Virus record (IMG/VR): IMGVR_UViG_3300032092_000210
Coordinates: 1 to 25,914 of that record
Direction: 5' to 3' (one strand)
Length of the DNA: 25,914 bases
DNA from: a virus
A program made the translations under genes and the position numbers. Numbering within the stretch: position 1 is the stretch's first letter; every line of letters begins with the position of its first letter. The notes under the pieces were generated by a model. The model did not search any database. It worked only from the letters and a program-made list of their open reading frames with translations, and was not told the origin of the DNA. Below, in pieces: positions 8,878 to 25,441 of this stretch.

Positions 8878-10827
8878 TTATATTAAATTTTTTGTTGATG
8901 CTGCAAATAAATTTGTAGTATCATATGTAACAAATGTAATTATATCAGTTGCACCAGATATAGCTGATGCTGAATATGCTAATAAATTTGGAAATTTAAT
9001 GTTTGATGGGTAAGTTAAACTACCAGTCGTTGCAGGTTGTAATACTTTTAAAGTTATTGTTTCACCTGGTTGTATATTTGTGGCAACTAATCTTGTAGTA
9101 GCTCCACTAGCTAATGTTAAAGTAAAGAAGTTACCCAATGAACAATCCATACTTGCAGTATTAGATGTGATTGTTAAAGGTACTACAACTCCTCTTACAC
9201 TTCCGCTAAATGTTGAATTACCCATTACATTTAATTCAACTGCTGCTGAAGATGAAAGTATTAAACTTCCTGTTATTGTTTGGTTACCATTAAATGAATT
9301 ACTTCCAGTCGTTGCATAAGAAGCAGTTGCTGCTGATAATTCATTTAATCTAGTTATTGTAGATGATGTAAATGATTGTAAAGATGAAGTAGCAAATTCT
9401 AAACTTCCTAATCTTTGATTTATAGAAGAAGTATAAGAATTAAATGAAGAAGTAAATAACTTCTGATTAATTTGATTTTGTAAGAATGATGCAGTTGCAT
9501 CTAATTCAGCTTGTGTAGCAAAATCAATTTGAAGAGATGAACTCCAACTTTGTAATTCAGTAAATTGAGAAGATACGGAAGAACTAAATGGCCCTTCTAA
9601 AAAATCTAATCTACTATCAACCGATGTTGAAAAGTTTATATATGTAGATGAAGTAAAATTCTCTAATGAATCTAATCTACTATCTACTGAAGTACTAAAA
9701 GGTCCTTCTAAGAAATCTAATCTACTATCTACTGATTGAGAGTAAGTTGTTACATTACCAATTCCACTAATTGTAGAAGAAGAAATATTTCCTTTAACAT
9801 CTAAATTAGCAGATATACCCATAGAACCTGTCAAAGAAGCGCTTCCTGACATTATCACGGAACCGATGAGGGTTTGTGTATCCGAAACCTCATCTCCTAA
9901 TATATTGCTCCCTGATGAGTAAATAATCGATGATGATTCTATTAGTGTTACTACCTTATTTGCGGTTAAAGTACCAACTACGTTTAAGTTATTTCTTACT
10001 TCAATATTAGAAGCAGTAATATCATTTGTGAATATAGTATTAGCTCCACTTGCAGTAAATGCTGCTCTTAATGAAGATGTATAATTTTCAATGTTAGTAA
10101 ATTCAGACCACAAAGATTGTGAGAATGTAGTTACGTTACCTATACCTGTTATAGTTGATGAACTTATTGCATTAGAAACAAATAGAGAACCTGTATTTCT
10201 TTGGCTTCCACTTACTTCTAAATCACCATTAATTCTTACATTATCATTTACAGTTACCTTACCTTCAATATCAAATGTACCTGATATAATAAGATTTTCA
10301 GAAACTTCTAAACTTCCGTATATGCGTGCAGTAGGTGAAGTTCTACCTGTGAATGTATAAGATTGTGCTATTTGTGGAGATTGACCTGCCATTGTAATAT
10401 AATAGCCGGATACCGATTTAGATACAGCTGTTACTACACCATTTGTAACGTTAATACCATTACATAACCAACCAACTTGCACATCGGCAATTGATGGAGG
10501 ATAATTATCAGATTGATAACTACCAGTCACATATACAGTATCCGTAAAAAATGGTTGTGTTGAGTTTGTATATGCCGGAGTAGATGCAGTAAAGTATGTA
10601 TTTAAACTAAATGCACCACTTAATTCAGTATCACTCATTACATTTAAATTTAATGTAGTTACTGAATTTGATGCTGATATATCACCTCGTGTATTTACTG
10701 ATATGCCTAATCCATTTCCAAGTCCATCTTGCAATTCTACTAAAGTAGCTGAAGCAGTTCTATCATTACCTAAATGAATAAGTGATGTATAACTTTGTGA
10801 AATGTATTGATTTGCTAAACTTCCCAT
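8878..10827 (-). CDS. long Ser/Thr-rich phage fiber protein
   Basis: 649 residues of low-complexity, Ser/Thr/Asn-rich sequence typical of marine and freshwater phage fibers. The N-terminus (YTSLIHLGNDRTASATLVEL then NGLGISVNTRGDISAS) looks like the virion-anchoring head of such fibers. The middle has beta-repeat tags such as GSLEVSENLIISG and VRINGDLEVSGS, then heptad-like coiled-coil repeats with SVDSRLDFLEGPF occurring twice and a shorter SVDSRLDSLENF copy between. A SYATTGSNSFNGNQTITGS linker leads to a C-terminal domain of ~130 residues that resembles the end of the 1285-residue fiber (both share a SxTFSGSV or SASFTGSV, then TSNTAS, then a TxLxVxxTNIxPG run). It is likely a trimer. The stop is 1 nt from the adhesin start. 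Confidence 0.7.
   Translation of the reverse strand: MGSLANQYISQSYTSLIHLGNDRTASATLVELQDGLGNGLGISVNTRGDISASNSVTTLNLNVMSDTELSGAFSLNTYFTASTPAYTNSTQPFFTDTVYVTGSYQSDNYPPSIADVQVGWLCNGINVTNGVVTAVSKSVSGYYITMAGQSPQIAQSYTFTGRTSPTARIYGSLEVSENLIISGTFDIEGKVTVNDNVRINGDLEVSGSQRNTGSLFVSNAISSSTITGIGNVTTFSQSLWSEFTNIENYTSSLRAAFTASGANTIFTNDITASNIEVRNNLNVVGTLTANKVVTLIESSSIIYSSGSNILGDEVSDTQTLIGSVIMSGSASLTGSMGISANLDVKGNISSSTISGIGNVTTYSQSVDSRLDFLEGPFSTSVDSRLDSLENFTSSTYINFSTSVDSRLDFLEGPFSSSVSSQFTELQSWSSSLQIDFATQAELDATASFLQNQINQKLFTSSFNSYTSSINQRLGSLEFATSSLQSFTSSTITRLNELSAATASYATTGSNSFNGNQTITGSLILSSSAAVELNVMGNSTFSGSVRGVVVPLTITSNTASMDCSLGNFFTLTLASGATTRLVATNIQPGETITLKVLQPATTGSLTYPSNIKFPNLLAYSASAISGATDIITFVTYDTTNLFAASTKNLI
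9581..9740 (-). repeat. internal direct repeats in the fiber gene
   Basis: Two near-identical copies of about 45 nt (9581-9625 and 9692-9736, about six mismatches by eye) encode SVDSRLDFLEGPF. A shorter related copy around 9669-9690 encodes SVDSRLDSLENF. They share the plus-strand core tctaatctactatc. They sit in the coiled-coil part of the fiber and could let it change length by recombination. Confidence 0.7.
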
Positions 10828-10844
10828 TTTATATTATTTATCTT

Positions 10845-11714
10845 TTAATCGTATTGCCACATTCTATATGCTACCGCAGAACCGGATGACCAGTTTTGAG
10901 GTGTTGTACTCCAAACTTGCGGATTAGCCCATAATTCACAATACTCACACGTTCCAAAATCAACATATGGTAAAGCAAGTATTGGCAAATTCACAAAATC
11001 AAAATCGTTCTCACCATTAAATGTATCTACAATAGTATAACAATTGTAGTCATAGTAGGTAGTGATGTCTCTTCTCGCATCTAATATATATTTGCTCATA
11101 AAGACCTGACCTATACTACCACTTTGGTTTAATACTGCCTTATATCTTTCACCCGTATCACACTCTTCAATTATATAGCCACTTCCCGAAGGGTTAACTA
11201 AAAAAAAAAGACAACGATTTTTATCGTTGTGAGTAGTTAACTCAAAGTTGGCTACCCACCCCGCCAGTCCGTTATTAAACCTATCGGAGAAGGGTTGACA
11301 AACAATATCTCCGTTTACTTCGAATCCCTGCACCCCCCTCTGTGTGTATGCGGTTAAATCGTTTAATACTGCAAGTGTGTTAGCGTGTATATCAACCATA
11401 TCATCCACTCCATAGAACGGAATTGTTTGAGCGTTTGTGCTACCTGATGATTCATTGTTTAATAGTTTCTGCTTATCAGCAATAGTTAACTGAACTGTAA
11501 AAGTAGTTGTTGATGTTTCAAATCTACTATCAGTTATTAACACATTACCCAACGGATATTCAGGATACTGCTTATCATCAATCGAATCAACATCACCATA
11601 GGTAACGGATTGAATCGATGGATGGTTCTTCATTATTGTCTTAAAGTAATTTAAAACATTGTAATAAAGAGAGTAGTTTACGCCTGTGTTATGTACAATT
11701 TGTTGATTAGCCAT
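10845..11714 (-). CDS. tail completion/head-tail connector protein with C-terminal extension
   Basis: 289 residues in zero frame. Residues 1 to ~172 resemble a Bacteroidota phage connector or tail-completion type: YYNVLNYFKTIMKNHPSIQS, VTYGDVDSID, a YPLGNVLITDSRF segment, a hydrophilic stretch with DDMVDIHANTLAVLNDL, and a closing DRFNNGLAGWVANFEL then NDKNRC. In relatives I remember, the protein ends about there. Here a T10 run follows, and the frame continues into a ~117-residue Cys-containing extension (GYIIEECDTGERYKAV, YNCYTIVDTF, FGTCEYC). If ribosomes slipped -1 on the T run they would stop after one Ser codon, giving a 173-residue core form. The gene lies 6 nt after the adaptor gene. 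The core role is inferred from family memory and position. Confidence 0.6.
   Translation of the reverse strand: MANQQIVHNTGVNYSLYYNVLNYFKTIMKNHPSIQSVTYGDVDSIDDKQYPEYPLGNVLITDSRFETSTTTFTVQLTIADKQKLLNNESSGSTNAQTIPFYGVDDMVDIHANTLAVLNDLTAYTQRGVQGFEVNGDIVCQPFSDRFNNGLAGWVANFELTTHNDKNRCLFFLVNPSGSGYIIEECDTGERYKAVLNQSGSIGQVFMSKYILDARRDITTYYDYNCYTIVDTFNGENDFDFVNLPILALPYVDFGTCEYCELWANPQVWSTTPQNWSSGSAVAYRMWQYD
11199..11210 (-). other. T10 slippery run, site 2
   Basis: In the sense strand the codons are CTT TTT TTT TTA (Leu-Phe-Phe-Leu), ten T in a row ending in the heptamer T TTT TTA, a classical -1 slippery pattern. A -1 slip gives AGT TAA, so translation ends at 11194-11196. Zero-frame reading gives the 289-residue form. 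The same 12-nt string in the same codon phase occurs at 21635-21646. Confidence 0.55.
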
Positions 11715-13979: not shown

Positions 13980-14011
13980 AAAAAAAGGGTACTACCGAAG
14001 TAATACCCTTT
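13980..14011 (-). terminator. rho-independent terminator with UUCG loop
   Basis: In the sense strand a 12-bp stem AAAGGGTATTAC / GTAGTACCCTTT (one G-U pair) closes a UUCG tetraloop as C(UUCG)G and runs into a T tract (T7 including three paired T). It sits 24 nt after the stop of the tube-like gene. This is the clearest terminator in the window and ends the scaffold-capsid-tube unit. Confidence 0.9.
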
Positions 14012-16440: not shown

Positions 16441-17178
16441 TTAAAATCTTGTTACAAAGTTATTGTAAATATTTGTCAAATCGGTTGTACTTAATGCCGA
16501 ATTATAATGTAAATACGCCATCAAATATCCATTAGCATATCTATCACTTACTGCATTATCAAATCCAATATTTGCAGTTCCTGTTCCAGTTCCACTTCTA
16601 TCAAAGTTTTGTGTTTGAGTTGCAGAGCTTGTGTTTCCATCTAAATAAGTAGTAGCAGTTGTATTGGGTGAACTATATGTTACAACTTGTCCGTATTGAT
16701 GCCAAATAGTAATATCGGATGGAGTTGATGTTGCTGAAAAGAATGTACTACCTCCACCTGATGTATTAAATAGAATTGGACAAAATCCTTTACTTCCACC
16801 TAAAAATGCAGCAAGATATCCATTGTTACCTCTTAAATTTGGAACACCTGTATCTTTTGAGAATGTAGAATCTATATTTTTCCAAATTATAACAGTAGAT
16901 GTATTTGATGTAAATGAAGCAGTATAATCTATTCTTTGAGAACTAGCATTATTCAATCTTAATATACCACCATTATCAGTACTAAATGTTGGTGAGTTTA
17001 CTAATGTACCATTATTACCATTTCCGCTTACATCATTAACAGTTGTACCACTTCCACCATATGAAGATGGATTTCCAAAATCATATATAGCGTACGCACC
17101 AGCGGGGTAATTAAAAGTATTACCACCCGCTGCTGCTTTTATTATTTGTCTATTAAAACCAAAGTTTTGAAATATCAT
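16441..17178 (-). CDS. LamG/concanavalin A-like lectin domain protein
   Basis: 245 residues. From about residue 28 the sequence is typical of a LamG-like or ConA-like jelly roll: YAIYDFGNPSSYGGSGTTVN, DVSGNGNNGTLVNSP, a TVIIWK strand, then TTYLDGNTS, and a closing YANGYLMAYLHYNSALSTTD segment followed by an amphipathic helix. Such domains in phage tails bind glycans or decorate heads. There is no signal peptide. The ATG overlaps the stop of the 1285-residue fiber gene (TAATG), so the two are translated together and may assemble together, the lectin perhaps as fiber tip. An alternative is a capsid decoration protein, since scaffold and capsid genes follow. Confidence 0.68.
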   Translation of the reverse strand: MIFQNFGFNRQIIKAAAGGNTFNYPAGAYAIYDFGNPSSYGGSGTTVNDVSGNGNNGTLVNSPTFSTDNGGILRLNNASSQRIDYTASFTSNTSTVIIWKNIDSTFSKDTGVPNLRGNNGYLAAFLGGSKGFCPILFNTSGGGSTFFSATSTPSDITIWHQYGQVVTYSSPNTTATTYLDGNTSSATQTQNFDRSGTGTGTANIGFDNAVSDRYANGYLMAYLHYNSALSTTDLTNIYNNFVTRF

Positions 17179-20100
17179 TATACTAATGCTTTAGTTGCTA
17201 CTAAATTTACTTTAGATGTATTGAATGCTACTAATGAAAGGATATCAATACTTCCTGCACTTCCACTATATGCACTTCCTGATGGTTGTGCTACGTTTGG
17301 TGAGAATGTAATTGATGAACTTGCACTTGCACTTACAATTAAAGTAGATGTAGTTCCTGGTTTAATATTTGTTATGTTTAAGTGTAATGGAGTTACTGAT
17401 GATGTTACTTCAAAGTAACTAGCTAAATTAAAATCAATAGATGCAGTATTAGATGTAATACTTGCTGAAACAACATTACCTGCTACACTGCCTGTAAACG
17501 ATGCACTACCACTTACGTTTAATGTACCTTCTACAAATGTGTTCGAACCACTATCGATTAAGAAACCAGTCTTTCTAGTCGCTTCACCCGTACCTGTACC
17601 TACTGCGAATACCGTTTCAGCAGTTTGGTCTTTTGTTCCATCAATTGCATTCCATCTACCAACATATACTGAACCCCAATCACTTCCTGATGTTGCTGTT
17701 GACCTAGTATTAGTTCCTAATGCTATTAATCCTTGTCCAATTAATGCTGCAGAATTAATTTGTGCATTATCACCATTTAAAGATGCAGAGAATACGTTAG
17801 CAGTACCAAACATACTAGCGTTACTAATTGTTCTACCAGGAGGGCCTGTAAGTGTTGTGTTGGAGCCTGATAAGAATATAGTATTGGAAGAACCAATGAA
17901 AATATTACCATTAACATTCGATACTACTTGTGAACCTGTTGTAGCGGGGAAATAAGAGTTATTTATAGTTAATCCACCCTGAATATTATTACCACTAAAA
18001 CCGATAGATGAACTATCCATATTCAATGTAGCTGTTCCACCAATGATATTAGATGATGCAACAACTGATGCAGATAATTGAGTTTTAGATGCTACTGCAC
18101 TAATAGTTCCAGCTAATATATTTGATGCTAATGTTAATCCACTTACTGCTCTTTCAAAATGATTTGTTGCAGATGTACCTAAATTGATTGTACCTCCTCC
18201 TAATATGTTATTATTAATATTATATGTAGATGAACTAACAGGTCCTCTTAATGTTAATGGATTTGCTGAATTACCAAAATAGTTATTAGCTATTGTTGGT
18301 GAGAATGCCATACTTCCACTTATTTGTGGAATTGCTACTCCACCACCTCCGACTGCTATATTACCACCAGTCATATATCTTTTAAATCCTGCAGTTGGTG
18401 CTGATGGGTTAGCAAATATATTATTACTACCTGATACGATTGTATCACCAGTACTTGTATTTGATTTGAATATTAAGTTCGTATTACCATTTATTTGCGA
18501 AGAAGTAATATGTGAAAGAGCTGCATATGTTGGAGTTGCTGTTGAGTTACCAATTACTAAACTACCTGATTCAGATAATAGATAAACTTCACCTTGTCCT
18601 GTACCTGATACGCTATTAATTGTTTGAACTCCTATAAAGTTATTCGAACCAGTCGTTGCGAAACTACCTGTATCTATTGTAGTTCCAAATGATGATGTGG
18701 CAACAGTTGTAGATACACCACTTGCGTTACCAACCCACACATATCCTTGCTGTAAAGATGCGGTAAATGTTGAACTAGCTTTTAAACTACCTGTAATATC
18801 TACGTTACTATTTACACCTGCATTAATTACTAATGGTGTAAACATTGTTACTCCACCAACGTTTCCTTGGAACTCAACAGGGTTATTTTGGAATGTTGTA
18901 GTGTTTCCAGCTGCACCTGCTAATGTAAATACTTTAATATTACTTGCTCCATCTCTACTAAATGCGATATCACCAACACCTGGCACTAATTGTACATTGT
19001 AATAAGATGAGCCACTAATGAAACGAACATTAGAACCATCGCCAATAGATAAAGCAGTTGTGTTAGGACCTGAATAGAATCCATTAGATGCTGATACAAA
19101 TCCATTAACAGTTTGATTGCCAGTAAATGTATTTGAGCCTGTTGTAGCGTAACTACCAGTTGCTGCTATTAAACTATTTACCTTTTGGTCATTACTTGCA
19201 GTATATGCGTTAAATGTTGTATTTGAAACTGAATTACTTCCTCCACCAACATCAACTCTATTTAAACTTGCTATTATTGATGCAGCTGAAGGTGTTGTTG
19301 GTGTTGTACCTTGTGGTAAATATTGCCAAGTTGTGTTAGCACTATCTGAAGCCCATTCTAATTCAACAACATCATTTTGATTAAGAGTTAGTAAATAAGT
19401 CCATGCAGGTAACAATTTACTATTAGAAGGTAATGTTACATCTCCTCTAGTACCTGGTACCTCAATACCATTTACATTTACCCAAACTGAAACTATTGCT
19501 GCACCTGAACCTTGAACTGCTTGTCCACTCCATTGTAAATTATATACACCATATGCACCTACTTGTAATCCAGTGCTACCTGAAAGTATTACACCATCAG
19601 AAACATCCGTTGTATTAAACTTAAATGCATATGCAGTATTAGCACTACCTGATTGAGTTGTACTATCTTGGAATGCACCATAAGAACCTGTTACATAAAT
19701 ACCACTACCTGTTGGTATAGTTAAATTAAATGTAGTTGCATCTCCTTTTCTGAATTGTAATATCTGTCCACTTATACTTGCAGTAGTTAAAGATAAACTT
19801 GCTGAAGTATATAAAGATGAAGTTGCAGATTGTAATGAAGCAGTAGCCTGATTTAATTGAGATATAGAGTTTACTATACTTGCAGTCGATTGTGATGCAG
19901 TATATACGTTTAATGCGTTTATACTAACTTGCTGTGATGCAGAACTTGCATTCAATTGTGATATAGATGAATCCGTAGATGCAGTATATGCGTTGAATGA
20001 AGATGTAGTTACAAAATCACCTGCACTTCCACTAACATCAGGAATGTTTACACTAAATGTAGTTGTATCTCCTTTTGTGAATGTTAAGTTACGAGTACCA

Positions 20101-21035
20101 TTATTAAATGATGCCGTATATAATGCCAAACTAGCTGAAGTATTTAAACTTGCAGTAGTTGATTCTAAATTATTTAATCTAACATTAGTTGAAGAAGTAT
20201 ATGAATTGAATGATGCGGTTAATTGGTTATAAGAGCCCGTATCCAATCCATTAACTGAAATGATTGCTACACCACCTATAACAGTCGCACCGATTGCAGA
20301 ACCTGTAAAGTTAAGTGATACTGCGTTACCTTGTGGAATACCTTCATCTAATATCGGCATTGAGATTGATGCGGTGATACCTGTAATCTTACTACCATTA
20401 CCAATAAATTCAGATGCGGATACAAATGAACTTGCACTAATAGATGTGAATGTATTAGCAGAAGTAAATGTGTTTGAGCCCGTAGTTGCGTAACTACCAG
20501 TCTTTGCATTTAAATTATTGATTGATGTTTGTTGTGATGCAGTAACTGAATTTAAATTAGTTATACTAACTGCAGTCGAAGCAGTAAACGTATTGATATT
20601 AGTTACTGATGTATTTAAACTTGCAGTAGTAGATTCTAAATTAGAGAATCTAATGTTTGCTGATGCAGTATATTGTTGTAAAGATGCAGTAGCTTGGTTT
20701 AAGTTACTGATATCAGGTATACTACCCGTTGCAACAGTTACATTAAATGTACTACCATTACCCTTTGTGAAAGTAATTGTATTACCTGCTGCAGATGCGG
20801 TTACTAATAGAGAGCCGGTAGTTAAACCTGTTGCTGATGCAGTGAATTGTTCTAATGCATCTATTTGCTGATTCCAACTTCCACTATCCGTATTATACTG
20901 AGTCTGATTAACAGTTGAATCAATCATATCCACATTAAATGCTCTTAAATTGGATGGGGTGATTGCTCCGTTATTGTTATTCGGAAATTCCGTATTGTTT
21001 TCTACCTTTAAGGCCTGTTTTGAAATTTCTGCCAT
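17178..21035 (-). CDS. giant multi-domain tail/side fiber
   Basis: 1285 residues, the largest gene here. Residues 1-45 (MAEISKQALKVENNTEFPNN, then GAITPSNLRAFNVDMIDS) look like a virion-attachment head seen in related phage fibers. Residues about 50-445 are Ser/Thr-rich heptad-like repeats (NLESTTASLNTS; FTKGNGSTFNV and its variants FTKGDTTTFSV, FRKGDATTFNL). Residues about 450-595 resemble a C1q/TNF-like jelly roll (NTAYAFKFNTTDVSDGV; YNLQWSGQAV; VSVWVNVNGIEVPGTRGDV; DVVELEWAS). ATTGSN-x-F linkers recur at 183, 630 and 793. A beta-solenoid-like part with repeated NNI-x-GG segments spans about 870-1080. The end (about 1165-1285) resembles the end of the 649-residue fiber. Probably trimeric and extracellular. 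Its stop overlaps the lectin start. Confidence 0.72.
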   Translation of the reverse strand: MAEISKQALKVENNTEFPNNNNGAITPSNLRAFNVDMIDSTVNQTQYNTDSGSWNQQIDALEQFTASATGLTTGSLLVTASAAGNTITFTKGNGSTFNVTVATGSIPDISNLNQATASLQQYTASANIRFSNLESTTASLNTSVTNINTFTASTAVSITNLNSVTASQQTSINNLNAKTGSYATTGSNTFTSANTFTSISASSFVSASEFIGNGSKITGITASISMPILDEGIPQGNAVSLNFTGSAIGATVIGGVAIISVNGLDTGSYNQLTASFNSYTSSTNVRLNNLESTTASLNTSASLALYTASFNNGTRNLTFTKGDTTTFSVNIPDVSGSAGDFVTTSSFNAYTASTDSSISQLNASSASQQVSINALNVYTASQSTASIVNSISQLNQATASLQSATSSLYTSASLSLTTASISGQILQFRKGDATTFNLTIPTGSGIYVTGSYGAFQDSTTQSGSANTAYAFKFNTTDVSDGVILSGSTGLQVGAYGVYNLQWSGQAVQGSGAAIVSVWVNVNGIEVPGTRGDVTLPSNSKLLPAWTYLLTLNQNDVVELEWASDSANTTWQYLPQGTTPTTPSAASIIASLNRVDVGGGSNSVSNTTFNAYTASNDQKVNSLIAATGSYATTGSNTFTGNQTVNGFVSASNGFYSGPNTTALSIGDGSNVRFISGSSYYNVQLVPGVGDIAFSRDGASNIKVFTLAGAAGNTTTFQNNPVEFQGNVGGVTMFTPLVINAGVNSNVDITGSLKASSTFTASLQQGYVWVGNASGVSTTVATSSFGTTIDTGSFATTGSNNFIGVQTINSVSGTGQGEVYLLSESGSLVIGNSTATPTYAALSHITSSQINGNTNLIFKSNTSTGDTIVSGSNNIFANPSAPTAGFKRYMTGGNIAVGGGGVAIPQISGSMAFSPTIANNYFGNSANPLTLRGPVSSSTYNINNNILGGGTINLGTSATNHFERAVSGLTLASNILAGTISAVASKTQLSASVVASSNIIGGTATLNMDSSSIGFSGNNIQGGLTINNSYFPATTGSQVVSNVNGNIFIGSSNTIFLSGSNTTLTGPPGRTISNASMFGTANVFSASLNGDNAQINSAALIGQGLIALGTNTRSTATSGSDWGSVYVGRWNAIDGTKDQTAETVFAVGTGTGEATRKTGFLIDSGSNTFVEGTLNVSGSASFTGSVAGNVVSASITSNTASIDFNLASYFEVTSSVTPLHLNITNIKPGTTSTLIVSASASSSITFSPNVAQPSGSAYSGSAGSIDILSLVAFNTSKVNLVATKALV

Positions 21036-21368: not shown

Positions 21369-21637
21369 TTATCGGTTACTCATTTTAGCAACTGATTCTT
21401 TATGTAATAGATTTTCTAATACAACTTTATCAGCTCTATAAGCTAAGTATAACAGACATTTCTCTAACGGCTCTTTAACAATGACATCGAATTTGGTAAT
21501 GTCCCCATCGGCAAGCTCAACAATTGTAGCATATGATGCCCACTTCTTTGCAAAATTGGCTTGATGTTGGGAGGCAAGTCCATCTCCATCGAAGATTTCA
21601 GGGTAGCGCTCAGCAAGTCCGTTAATAAATTGAATAA
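21369..21637 (-). CDS. -1 frame C-terminus of the chaperone-like protein (frameshift extension)
   Basis: This open frame has no good start of its own. It continues the preceding gene if the ribosome or polymerase slips -1 on the T10 run at 21636-21645, and would make a 256-residue fused product (168 + 88). The sequence IQFINGLAERYPEIFDGDGL, then ANFAKKWASYATIVELADGD, then FDVIVKEPLEKCLLYLAYRA is balanced in charge and hydrophobicity. It matches the C-terminal part I remember for this Bacteroidota phage family (W-x-x-S/Y-I-x-x-L-A-x-G-D-I-T-K-F, then P-L-x-x-C-L-x-Y-L). The zero-frame tail does not look like a natural protein end by comparison. The alternatives are a sequencing error in the homopolymer or a real disabling mutation. 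Confidence 0.6.
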
Positions 21638-22138
21638 AAAAAAAAGTGCCCCAAAATGAACATGCATTGGCACATCTAAGAACTTCTCTGAATTATCTTC
21701 AGCTACATATGGTTTAATAGAATAGTATTTGCCTATTTTTTTATCTATTGGTCTGTATAAGATATTCATTATCTTAATCCAATTCTCATCTATCTGAATT
21801 GTTTCAAACTTAGTAATGTCAGAATAAGCACCATAACTCATCTCTCCCAAATTAGGTTCAAAGCCGTATTCAACGCCATCTATTGTAATAAATTGCTGTA
21901 AAGGTAATTCAGTATTCATTAAGAATGAGCCTAGCTCACCTTTAATCATATTGTAATCATCTACGGATAATCCTCTTAGATATTCAGCCGGCAAATTACA
22001 TAAGTGCATAAGAAGTAAAGCAACAGTTGCTTCTTCATCATCTTCATATGATTTTAATTCGTTTTGTAATTGTAGCCATTTCTTTAGGTTGATATCTGCA
22101 TAAGATGTAGGTATCTTAATTTCTAATTCCTTTACCAT
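21464..22138 (-). CDS. conserved tail-assembly-chaperone-like protein, zero-frame form
   Basis: 224 residues as read straight through. Residues 1-168 look like the N-terminal part of a Bacteroidota phage protein often found among tail genes: VKELEIKIPTSYADINLKKW, VDGVEYGFEPNLGEM-type segment (here IDGVEYGFEPNLGEMSYGAY), MNILYRPIDKKIGKYYSI, then a PMHVHFGALFF hydrophobic segment. After the T10 run the zero frame adds 56 residues rich in Pro, Leu, Met and Ser that look out of frame. The arrangement (short form plus -1 extension) is what lambda G/GT-type tail chaperones use, but the tape measure here is far away, so the chaperone role is an inference. The ATG overlaps the preceding stop by 7 nt (ATGGTAA). 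Confidence 0.6.
   Translation of the reverse strand: MVKELEIKIPTSYADINLKKWLQLQNELKSYEDDEEATVALLLMHLCNLPAEYLRGLSVDDYNMIKGELGSFLMNTELPLQQFITIDGVEYGFEPNLGEMSYGAYSDITKFETIQIDENWIKIMNILYRPIDKKIGKYYSIKPYVAEDNSEKFLDVPMHVHFGALFFLFNLLTDLLSATLKSSMEMDLPPNIKPILQRSGHHMLQLLSLPMGTLPNSMSLLKSR
21635..21646 (-). other. T10 slippery run, site 1
   Basis: The sense codons are CTT TTT TTT TTA (Leu-Phe-Phe-Leu), ten T ending in the slippery heptamer T TTT TTA. A -1 slip enters the long open frame that ends at 21369. Zero frame ends at 21464. I see no strong stimulatory hairpin within about 15 nt downstream. Confidence 0.6.
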
Positions 22139-22326
22139 ATATTGTTTTGTTTTAATATTAACATTAATCTTTTTACTTTAGCTTCTTCGTTATCTAATTT
22201 AGCCTGCATTGCTATAATGCCTGCACGAAGGTCTTCATTTGTTTGTTGTAGCTCTTTTGCAAATAGAATTAAATCTCTTATCTCTTCTGCTGTCCACGTT
22301 TGTTCTTTATCTAATACTGATGACAT
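22132..22326 (-). CDS. coiled-coil miniprotein
   Basis: 64 residues, nearly all helix. TAEEIRDLILFAKELQQTNE and LRAGIIAMQAKLDNEEAKVK have heptad hydrophobic spacing, so a short dimeric coiled coil is likely. It overlaps the end of the terminase large subunit gene by 20 nt and the start of the next gene by 7 nt, so it is embedded in a tightly coupled operon. No known family comes to mind. A packaging or assembly accessory role is suggested only by its neighbours. Confidence 0.6.
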   Translation of the reverse strand: MSSVLDKEQTWTAEEIRDLILFAKELQQTNEDLRAGIIAMQAKLDNEEAKVKRLMLILKQNNIW

Positions 22327-23461
22327 ACTTTCCTTTGTTTGTTGCTTTTTGTGTTAACTTCATCATTGCTACATAACGTGCAGCATCCAATAAGTGGTCT
22401 AATCCACCTTCGGGTGTATCTGTAATATAACCATGCTTATCAGTTGCGTATTGATAGGCATACATCTCATTGATTAGGTTTTGTGATTTCTTATGTACAT
22501 GCAGTTTATGATTCTGCAATACTGATATACCAAACTTAATACTATCAGGTCCTTTTTTTACTGCCTTTGCATTAAAGCCCATTCGGTATAACTCTTCTAT
22601 TGAACGTGGTTCAGAACTATCACACCAAATCTCTTCAGATTTAGTTATGTCTAATTTATTTAGTTTATCCGAAATATCTTTTAGAACTAATCCCTTCTCA
22701 TATAGTATCTCTTCTAAGTAAAGGTTATCACCATTCTTATAAACTGCTACAACAGCAGTAGGGTCTTGCGAATATCCCCAGTCCAAACCAAATGCCACAA
22801 ACTCCGCTTCGTAATCTTCAACTACTTCAAAGTTGTATATTGCTTTATCATTTGCAGCAAACTCACCTTTACCATATATTGTCCATTGCTTAGGGTTCTT
22901 ATATTGTAACTCTTCAATTGCTCTAACCATTTCGATAGGCAAGTATATGTTATCTTTATATGTGGTAACGTATCTATCACAATCTTGCATTTGTCTTAAC
23001 CAATGATAAGGTGATACAGTAGGGTTATAAGATAGTATGATTCTGCCTGTTGTTCTTATACTTAACTGAAAATAACTTTCCTCATCTAATTCCGATGCTT
23101 CATCTATATAGAGTATATCACTCTTTAAACCTCTTAACTTCTCCGGGTCATCTGAATTAATAAATTGAACTATACTATCACCTAACTTATATGTTCTGTC
23201 CGTTGTGTTCCAATCGTTCTCATTCCATATTCCTAAGCTCTTTAGTATATCGGTGAAATCTTTGATTATAGTACGTTTAAGCGATGGAATGGTTCTACGC
23301 ACCACTGTTATCGTTTGCGTTGATTCTAGCCCCCTTACAATGAGAAATTGGAGTATTGCATACGTCTTACCACTACGAGTTCCACCAATATGTTGACTGA
23401 CTCTTTGTTTTGATTCTAAAAGATTCTCAAACGTTACAGTAGTGTTAATCGTTACTTCCAC
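22307..23461 (-). CDS. terL: terminase large subunit (PBSX-like)
   Basis: 384 residues. This is the packaging motor: an N-terminal ATPase and a C-terminal RNase H-fold nuclease that cuts concatemers. Walker A is GGTRSGKT at 26-33. Walker B is ILYIDE at 116-121 with the catalytic Glu121. The coupling motif is SYN at 144-146. The nuclease acids are likely D227 (FGLDWGYSQDPTA), D281 (IWCDSSEP) and D355 or D359 (GLDHLLDAARY). The overall pattern is like the PBSX/Terminase_3 group. The start is GTG at 23461: an in-frame TAA lies just upstream and no ATG occurs before Walker A. It overlaps the small subunit gene by 17 nt, so expression is coupled. All key residues are present, so it should be active. 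Confidence 0.93.
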   Translation of the reverse strand: MEVTINTTVTFENLLESKQRVSQHIGGTRSGKTYAILQFLIVRGLESTQTITVVRRTIPSLKRTIIKDFTDILKSLGIWNENDWNTTDRTYKLGDSIVQFINSDDPEKLRGLKSDILYIDEASELDEESYFQLSIRTTGRIILSYNPTVSPYHWLRQMQDCDRYVTTYKDNIYLPIEMVRAIEELQYKNPKQWTIYGKGEFAANDKAIYNFEVVEDYEAEFVAFGLDWGYSQDPTAVVAVYKNGDNLYLEEILYEKGLVLKDISDKLNKLDITKSEEIWCDSSEPRSIEELYRMGFNAKAVKKGPDSIKFGISVLQNHKLHVHKKSQNLINEMYAYQYATDKHGYITDTPEGGLDHLLDAARYVAMMKLTQKATNKGKYVISIR

Positions 23462-24267: not shown

Positions 24268-24676
24268 ATTCTTCCCACGTTATATTGCGTGTATCGGGGT
24301 AATCACTTTCTATCCTTTTTTGTTTTTTAATTGGTTCATCACCATCATGTGCATTAATCCATTTTAAAACATCTTCACTTAGATTTAGTAATCTATTCCG
24401 CATTAACTCTCTCCATTCTTCTCTCGTCTTACATTTAAATGTTTTACTAGCCAATGATTTAAAGTAATTGCCTGTTGTAGAATGTCCTTCACTCAATGGG
24501 TATGGTACTCTTCCTATAAATCCAATTCTTTTACCTTCTCTTATTGATGCTTCCCTTTGATAATGTTTAGATGCTTCTCTTTGACATTCTACACAGGTAT
24601 TAGTAGCGTGTTTATGTTTTTGTGGTATATCTTTTACTTCTCCACACTTAATGCATGTTCTACTTTCAATTCTCAT
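24230..24676 (-). CDS. zinc-ribbon protein, possibly DNA-binding
   Basis: 148 residues. A CxxC-x16-CxxC zinc ribbon lies at C8, C11, C28 and C31 (RTCIKCGEVKDIPQKHKHAT, then NTCVECQREASKHYQ), followed by a basic helix. This N-terminal layout occurs in phage endonuclease VII-like and HNH-associated proteins, but I see no His-Asn-His or other nuclease core here. The middle (GNYFKSLASKTFKCKTREEW, then RELMRNRLLNLSEDVLKWIN) is helical, and the C-terminus is acidic. It overlaps the end of the sigma factor gene by 11 nt, so the two are coexpressed. A DNA-binding or regulatory role is plausible but unproven. Confidence 0.58.
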   Translation of the reverse strand: MRIESRTCIKCGEVKDIPQKHKHATNTCVECQREASKHYQREASIREGKRIGFIGRVPYPLSEGHSTTGNYFKSLASKTFKCKTREEWRELMRNRLLNLSEDVLKWINAHDGDEPIKKQKRIESDYPDTRNITWEEYERGLGDNEVDS

Positions 24677-25217
24677 CGTATGGATTATTTATAACTTCTT
24701 TTAAATACTTTCTTATTTTCTTTACAGCTAAGAAAGTTGTACTTTTACTTATTTTAATGTCTTTTGCTACTTCATCCAATGTTCTTTCACTCATCCAATA
24801 TAACTGAAAGATACGAGCTGATGGCCACATCTTTGTTGTTTCTAAATGTTTTAATTCATTCATTACGTCATCGAATGCTTTCTGAATTGCTGCATCTTTT
24901 TCTTCATCATAAGGTATGTCAATTTCATCAGAATATATTTCTTCTTTTAGTGTTATCTTTGAATTTCTTTTTTGTTTGTTAATCCATCTATGTTTCAAAA
25001 ATTGCTGGCAGTACATTATGTTATAAGAGTTTCCCCAAAAGATAGATGGGTTACACTTTTCAGCTAAGTAAAGATAGAGTTCCTGCACTAAATCATCTGC
25101 AGAATCTCTATCCTTAGTTACATTTAATGCCATATTAAATAACCATTTGTGCGAATCAATATAAAGGACTTCTAGTCTTTTATTACATTCGGTTAATAAT
25201 AGGCTTCCACTAATCAT
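24666..25217 (-). CDS. phage sigma-70-like (ECF-type) factor
   Basis: 183 residues from the ATG at 25217, which overlaps the preceding stop as TAATG. A TTG 21 nt further up (25238) would also be in frame but is the weaker choice. Residues about 10-75 fit sigma region 2 (RLEVLYIDSHKWLFNMALNV, then DRDSADDLVQELYLYLAEKC, the usual A-[DE]-DL-[VT]-Q-E core). A charged acidic linker follows. Residues about 125-175 fit region 4 with its helix-turn-helix (ARIFQLYWMSERTLDEVAKD, then SKSTTFLAVKKIRKYLKE). It would bind host RNA polymerase and direct it to phage promoters. The recurring intergenic motif before late units is a natural candidate target. Divergent from housekeeping factors, but both regions are visible. 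Confidence 0.72.
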   Translation of the reverse strand: MISGSLLLTECNKRLEVLYIDSHKWLFNMALNVTKDRDSADDLVQELYLYLAEKCNPSIFWGNSYNIMYCQQFLKHRWINKQKRNSKITLKEEIYSDEIDIPYDEEKDAAIQKAFDDVMNELKHLETTKMWPSARIFQLYWMSERTLDEVAKDIKISKSTTFLAVKKIRKYLKEVINNPYDEN

Positions 25218-25441
25218 TATTTTCTTTCTTTTATCCAATTATGTAAATAATCAACGGCTCTTTTCCAATGCGCTCCACTGCTTGCGCAAGTACACGGACG
25301 TGGTTCGTTTTCGTTTCTTAACTTATTAAAGTTATCCCAAATGTATGGTGCTTTGTTTTCAGGTAGATATGCTCCTATTTCTGATAAGGTTTTATCTAAT
25401 TCCTGAAACTCTTCAAATGTCAATGGATAATACTTTTCCAT
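25217..25441 (-). CDS. small unknown protein with CTC motif
   Basis: 74 residues. The C-terminal part (RPCTCASSGAHWKRAVDYLH, then NWIKERK) has a pattern I have seen in other Bacteroidota phage miniproteins (PC-[ST]-C-x-SSG, a W, then a basic helix), with no known function. The N-terminus (YYPLTFEEFQELDKTLSEIG) is a probable helix. The ATG is 1 nt after the upstream stop, and its own stop overlaps the sigma factor start, so the three genes form one coupled unit. Confidence 0.58.
   Translation of the reverse strand: MEKYYPLTFEEFQELDKTLSEIGAYLPENKAPYIWDNFNKLRNENEPRPCTCASSGAHWKRAVDYLHNWIKERK

Follow-up and report, generated by a model that had tools for sequence, protein, structure and literature searches.

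Frameshifting in the tail assembly chaperone (TAC) genes of lambda-type phages is textbook ribosomal recoding. The RNA polymerase offers another way of drawing two proteins from one gene. Runs of nine A or T are enough for efficient slippage of the bacterial enzyme in vivo, its RNA:DNA hybrid spans 9-10 bp, and examples of slippage are known from insertion sequences, dnaX and the genes of type III secretion (PMC5009743). Thermus dnaX has a T9 run, and both shifted frames are closed by stops there; in a Roseiflexus element a 5' hairpin next to the slip run stimulates polymerase slippage (PMC5009743). E. coli RNA polymerase slips on at least seven T, more on T than on A (PMC6260861); single-nucleotide insertions are the dominant outcome and increase exponentially as the run lengthens (PMC5574713). 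For a phage methylase slippage has been suggested (PMC2853527), and in the literature searched, outside of which most subscription papers lay, we found no precedent in a tail chaperone or tail terminator gene.

We find that two genes of a phage lineage carry T9 or T10 runs at which host RNA polymerase quite likely slips, so that each gene would give two proteins. The window, by which we mean the whole stretch of DNA analysed, comprises 25,914 bases of a viral record at 33.6% GC and encodes on its minus strand a terminase, a portal, a tape-measure-like gene and further tail genes. At this base composition a T10 alone is not rare, and the evidence therefore lies in conservation: shuffled windows average 0.64 A/T runs of at least ten, 13% of them hold two or more, and compared with them the window has no excess of T runs. 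In two large Ser/Thr-rich proteins (17178-21035 and 8878-10827, minus strand) short motifs recur (SATGSYATTGSN, SVDSRLDFLE) and the C-terminal parts resemble each other; these proteins are perhaps tail fibres. A strong hairpin of terminator type, AAAGGGTATTACTTCGGTAGTACCCTTT and then TTTTGTTTTA, stands between two tail/head genes (13984-14011, minus strand).

Gene 1 is a 224-codon frame on the minus strand (21464-22138) that passes, exactly as the initial annotation described, through CTT TTT TTT TTA (slip site 1, 21635..21646, minus strand; T10 at 21636-21645). The strand reads GCA CTT TTT TTT TTA TTC, and the heptamer T TTT TTA that had been noticed there is present. The 166-aa N-terminal domain, a putative tail assembly chaperone domain, lies in the zero frame (21641..22138, minus strand), and a zero-frame tail (21464..21640, minus strand) ends the 224-aa product. 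Beyond the run the -1 frame is open, as had also been claimed, until the stop codon at 21369-21371; it encodes ...FINGLAERYPEIF...KKWASYATIVELADGDITKF...EPLEKCLLYLAYRA.... Read from the sequence, a shift would yield a product of 256 aa, whose C-terminal domain lies at 21369..21638 (minus strand). This -1 tail has 221 relatives among viral-contig stretches and a mean column identity of 64% in 29 sequences, P12024S included.

Is the frame relation real? The N part (zero frame) and the C part (-1 frame) were searched separately, and loci with both parts were counted; in 255 of 255 the C part lies in the -1 frame of the N part with T9 or T10 at the junction. These loci amount to 166 unique 300-base site sequences and 128 representatives below 95% identity and, being related, overstate independence, as do the gene 2 counts below. 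The family extends to the cultured Nonlabens phages P12024S and P12024L (28% identity), which have T9 at the same junction; the P12024S annotation splits the homologue into two hypothetical proteins, gp38 and gp39. Homopolymers are prone to error and the window comes from a metagenome-derived viral record, so that a similar picture could come from gene decay or from a mistake in base calling or assembly. Yet the same relation recurs in all the unique site sequences, which come from many samples, and in the cultured genomes, and both gene 1 domains are conserved. Given that the frame relation holds across the family and reaches the Nonlabens phages, sequencing error is excluded, and the chance that error or decay explains the locus is negligible. 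The 255 loci thereby support, at the level of sequence, the earlier proposal of two products from a programmed -1 event resembling G/GT.

Both tails of gene 1 appear to be under selection. The zero frame after the run stays open for a median of 50 codons, against 4 when codons are reshuffled synonymously with the -1 protein fixed, and p<0.05 in 91% of sequences; the +1 frame closes early, after 4 codons against 8. Counted from the slip, zero-frame positions 4, 7, 8, 13 and 15 show clearly more conservation than the -1 protein explains; others do not, and a few show less. The Nonlabens clade keeps a zero-frame Y-x-L-x-x-D-L beside a -1 frame that is likewise conserved. Synonymous diversity is 0.26 in the first 8 codons of the overlap, and across the overlap without them it is not lowered (0.90 vs 0.85, p 0.72); constraint at the amino-acid level is confined to these 8 codons and to individual zero-frame residues. 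Because the zero frame is kept open and zero-frame residues are conserved, both products look functional, and the 224-aa and 256-aa forms are probably both used. The initial annotation would have taken a conserved zero-frame tail as evidence against a shift; that tail is indeed under selection, but so is the -1 tail.

Gene 1 probably encodes a tail assembly chaperone. The N domain of the window protein matches phrog_32199 (E 4.5e-13), as do 50/50 members of its family; 19/50 match phrog_166, a 'tail protein', 3/50 match phrog_3140, a tail assembly chaperone, and 6/50 match PF10109 TAC_7 (best 6e-5), the window protein itself falling under the Pfam cut-off. An AF2 model of the N domain (pLDDT 89) is mostly helical and finds in BFVD, among many phage proteins that are uncharacterised, one that bears the name tail assembly chaperone (E 3.2e-3). 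Against PDB folds the model gave nothing at E below 3, known TAC folds still being possible; VIA returned weak rows only (Z 2.9 or less), and a solved-structure sequence search with the gene 1 alignment gave no match. A TAC gene customarily, though not strictly, stands just upstream of the tape measure gene. Gene 1 instead comes after TerL (22307-23461) and adjoins the terminase, an unusual placement, with the tape measure gene at 845-2743. The chaperone-like identity first suggested is thus probable from TAC_7, phrog_166 and phrog_3140, but the matches are weak and the gene stands beside the terminase.

When slip site 1 is compared among relatives, as had been suggested, the run is T9 or T10 in all 255 loci; T7, T8 and T11 or longer do not occur. 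This length is held through five codon registers, since T9 may begin at any of the three codon positions and T10 at position 2 or 3: xxV TTT TTT TTT (T9, 131 loci), NTT TTT TTT TTx (T10, 109), NTT TTT TTT TAy (T9, 10), GGT/ACT TTT TTT TTC (T9, 3) and AGT TTT TTT TTT (T10, 2). By parsimony the register changed at least 11 times on the gene 1 tree, and the run class or the codon before the run at least 33 times, so the codon counts of the T9 class are far from a single event. A run of 9-10 T is also a possible site of replication slippage, by which the DNA run length would alter and the products switch between virions. Such phase variation is highly improbable, since the switch would produce T8 and T11 genomes, of which there are none among the sampled loci, and both products of virion assembly genes are expected in the same cell.

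The more serious alternative to polymerase slippage is programmed -1 ribosomal frameshifting at both sites on T TTT TTT or T TTT TTA, much as in lambda G/GT. T TTT TTT stands in frame in every class of site 1, and at site 2 as well, in agreement with the X XXY YYZ pattern; -1 is the direction in known tail chaperones, and for frameshifting TAC genes values of 6-7% have been measured (PMC3711429). A ribosomal heptamer alone, however, would tolerate T7, T8 and T11, since T TTT TTT needs only 7 T, and through all the register changes the run has nowhere shortened to T7 or T8. Against this, the demand for Phe in the protein, combined with the need for T TTT TTT, would hold many runs at 8-9 T, and part of the run-length conservation could be ribosomal in origin.

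The base before the run gives a further point. Of 55 representatives of the T9 class, 54 have G or C as the last base of the Leu codon ahead of the run (TTG, CTG or CTC), where 19% is expected, and this codon is never CTT or TTA; elsewhere Leu codons are TTA in 49% and CTT in 15%. CTT ahead of a T9 run would make T11. This base is outside any ribosomal heptamer, and its selection argues against the ribosomal reading. The consensus of the T9 class is G-T9-G, with G before the run in 55/67 and after it in 43/67. The elemental pause consensus of RNA polymerase is G-10 Y-1 G+1, which the G-T9-G consensus resembles.

RNA structure points in the same direction. At site 1 RNAalifold, run on 41 sequences with pseudoknots outside its scope, finds 0 conserved pairs; in the window the site folds worse than shuffles (z +1.87), and mean z values in the family are +0.2 upstream and +0.5 downstream. 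A search of Rfam gave no match. Since no structure is conserved at site 1, the downstream element that usually stimulates ribosomal frameshifting is missing there, pseudoknots lying outside the search, and within the same scope downstream structure is absent at site 2 also. That gene 1 has no hairpin speaks, on the other hand, against the polymerase reading.

The window holds a second copy of the identical 12-mer, CTTTTTTTTTTA, overlooked in the initial annotation. This CTT TTT TTT TTA (slip site 2, 11199..11210, minus strand; T10 at 11200-11209) lies in gene 2 (10845..11714, minus strand), which encodes 289 aa, a tail-terminator-like domain (about residues 14-172) and an extension of about 117 aa. 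An exact T10 in the same register is found in 159 of 161 gene 2 loci (95 unique site sequences), while codon usage for Leu-Phe-Phe-Leu would give T10 in about 7%; in two loci (L152, L153) Leu is replaced by Ile and T10 is kept. Because relatives align in one frame through site 2, the unslipped product is the long form. Directly after the site AGT TAA (11194..11199, minus strand) closes the -1 frame, so that, read from the sequence, the slipped product would be 173 aa. In 81% of 69 representatives the -1 stop is the second codon beyond the run, against 32% expected, and the +1 frame is stopped at once in 69/69 against 91% expected. By chance about 55% would have a -1 stop within 6 codons and 91% a +1 stop, and so the stops are supporting and not decisive. 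That gene 2 closes the +1 frame as well as the -1 frame speaks against a ribosomal shift.

Just upstream of site 2 a terminator scan finds a hairpin, ACAACGAT-AAAA-ATCGTTGT (11211..11230, minus strand), one base (C) short of the T10; its RNA form is ACAAYGAU-AAAA-AUCGUUGU, likewise one base 5' of the run. Mean fold z is -3.3 upstream and +0.1 downstream at gene 2, and the position of the hairpin on the 5' side of the run is a further argument against ribosomal frameshifting. The Arg codon in the hairpin is CGT in 61/70 representatives against 15% in the gene family, being AGA only in a gene 2 copy that has no run, and the His codon is CAC in 66/70 against 40%. Compensatory changes or covariation were not found in the hairpin, because the encoded peptide HNDKNRC is nearly invariant. 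The hairpin and T10 together score as terminator-like, and site 2 might then be no slip site but, within gene 2, an attenuator or a weak intrinsic terminator. We hold this to be very unlikely: the stem has just 3 G-C pairs, the stops in both shifted frames are conserved, a terminated mRNA would have no stop codon, and standalone short genes of matching length indicate a translated short product.

These standalone genes are found in eight contigs (L383/L157, L434, L386/L169, L452, L444, L447/L134, L454 and L438), where a separate gene of 171-174 aa lies directly upstream of the long gene 2. They end where the slipped product ends, with NRCLFELY or NRCLFELM. The long gene of L134/L447 reads TTG TTC TTC TTA, having lost both the T run and the hairpin codon. 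Given that standalone short genes exist and that the run is lost in L134/L447, a need of the phage for the short protein is supported.

The nature of gene 2 comes from structure prediction. The model is of low-to-moderate confidence (pLDDT 60); Foldseek relates it to the Mu terminator (E 4.6e-4), and VIA places residues 14-163 on lambda gpU (3fzb) with Z 10.9 over 122 residues at an rmsd of 3.1, the top rows being nearly all terminator or cap proteins, including Mu and T5 p142. Sequence homology gave no PDB match and only phrog_30964, whose function is unannotated, and among GenBank phages gene 2 has no match. Residues 14-172 are thus predicted, with moderate model confidence, to adopt a gpU-like tail terminator fold. 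Slip site 2 encodes residues 169-172, the end of this domain; slippage there would accordingly free a bare terminator from a form with an extension of about 117 residues.

Across 24 genomes, sense-strand T9+ runs in open frames occur only in genes 1 and 2, apart from one in a chance frame of 95 codons that lies antisense to an ORF of 650; all other T9+ runs fall outside ORFs or on the antisense strand, and several of them have terminator-like surroundings. In L458 (~1044, minus strand) and L460 (~1025, minus strand) an intergenic T9 stands behind a hairpin (GCCACC...GGGTGGC), and the lineage therefore also uses T9 in ordinary terminators. We infer Bacteroidota as the host group, because of the Nonlabens phages only; a search of genome contigs confirmed no prophage relatives. 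Near the terminase genes the window encodes a small sigma-70-like protein (24666-25238, minus strand; PF04542 E 0.0023, below cut-off), and a similar gene occupies the corresponding position in P12024S. Such a protein may redirect host polymerase late in infection.

Taken across relatives, the sequences make it near certain that slippage at both T runs is programmed. As to the enzyme, slippage of RNA polymerase is probable and ribosomal frameshifting unlikely, and of the two mechanisms named in the initial annotation polymerase slippage is thus favoured; both could contribute. It is favoured because the run keeps to hybrid length, the base before it is under selection, no ribosomal stimulator is seen, and in gene 2 a hairpin stands on the 5' side and both shifted frames are closed. 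In the proposed mechanism host RNA polymerase would slip back on T9 or T10, a run as long as its RNA:DNA hybrid of 9-10 bp, in part of the transcripts and add one U, which gives exactly the observed -1 shift, and ordinary translation of the mixed mRNAs would yield two proteins per gene. Unslipped gene 1 mRNA would give the N domain with the zero-frame tail (224 aa), and mRNA with one extra U the N domain with the conserved -1 domain (256 aa), the putative counterparts of lambda gpG and gpGT. Unslipped gene 2 mRNA would give the 289-aa protein with its C-terminal extension; slipped mRNAs would stop immediately and give the bare 173-aa terminator, the hairpin just upstream helping slippage. The conserved runs, the frame relations, the stops, the open zero frame, the codon bias in the hairpin and the separate short genes can all be read from the sequences; that the slip occurs at the polymerase we infer, and likewise its rate and the roles of the products. 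In the literature searched we found no report of slippage by Bacteroidota RNA polymerase at T9 or T10.

If so, the lineage would set both its G/GT-type ratio and the ratio of long to short terminator by hybrid-length slippage of RNA polymerase and not ribosomally, with the chaperone gene dual-coding a tail of about 50 residues, and we regard this broader reading as somewhat favoured by the data. A large and environmentally widespread phage lineage then appears to replace ribosomal recoding by polymerase slippage, and the same device appears to be used again for two forms of the tail terminator. Two genes of one assembly line suggest a shared control point at which the polymerase, and not the ribosome, sets the ratio. 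The positions, registers and flanking bases of the runs offer a natural series for testing what RNA polymerase needs to slip. Frameshift predictors built on ribosomal motifs, and pipelines that split genes, as with gp38/gp39 of P12024S, would miss or misread such proteins.

How do the two genes compare with described systems? Like lambda gpG/gpGT and frameshifted TACs, gene 1 would derive from one gene a short and a -1 extended product with a common N part, which has weak matches to TAC families. It differs in having T9-10 without RNA structure, whereas the lambda type uses a G GGA AAG-type heptamer, in the selected alternative tail of about 50 residues on its unshifted product, and in adjoining the terminase and not the tape measure. 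Residues 14-172 of gene 2 share their predicted fold (VIA Z ~10) with the tail terminators lambda gpU, Mu and T5 p142; the long form differs in adding a C-terminal region of about 117 residues that slippage would remove. With dnaX of Thermus thermophilus (tau/gamma) gene 2 shares a T run (T9 in dnaX), stops in both shifted frames and a slipped mRNA predicted to give a truncated protein; gene 2 is, however, a putative phage tail terminator gene with T10 and an upstream hairpin, where slippage is predicted. The Roseiflexus IS630-type element likewise has a nascent-RNA hairpin adjacent to the slip run on its 5' side, but its run is T5C5 in place of T10, the stem in gene 2 is weaker, and an insertion or a bidirectional shift is expected in gene 2 as opposed to the single deletion of the element. 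Shigella spa13, spa33, mxiA and mxiE are a precedent for transcriptional slippage in several length or assembly genes of one machine, giving extended or truncated products, as is proposed for genes 1 and 2; these in turn are phage tail genes, with T runs on the coding strand that are conserved across a whole phage lineage.
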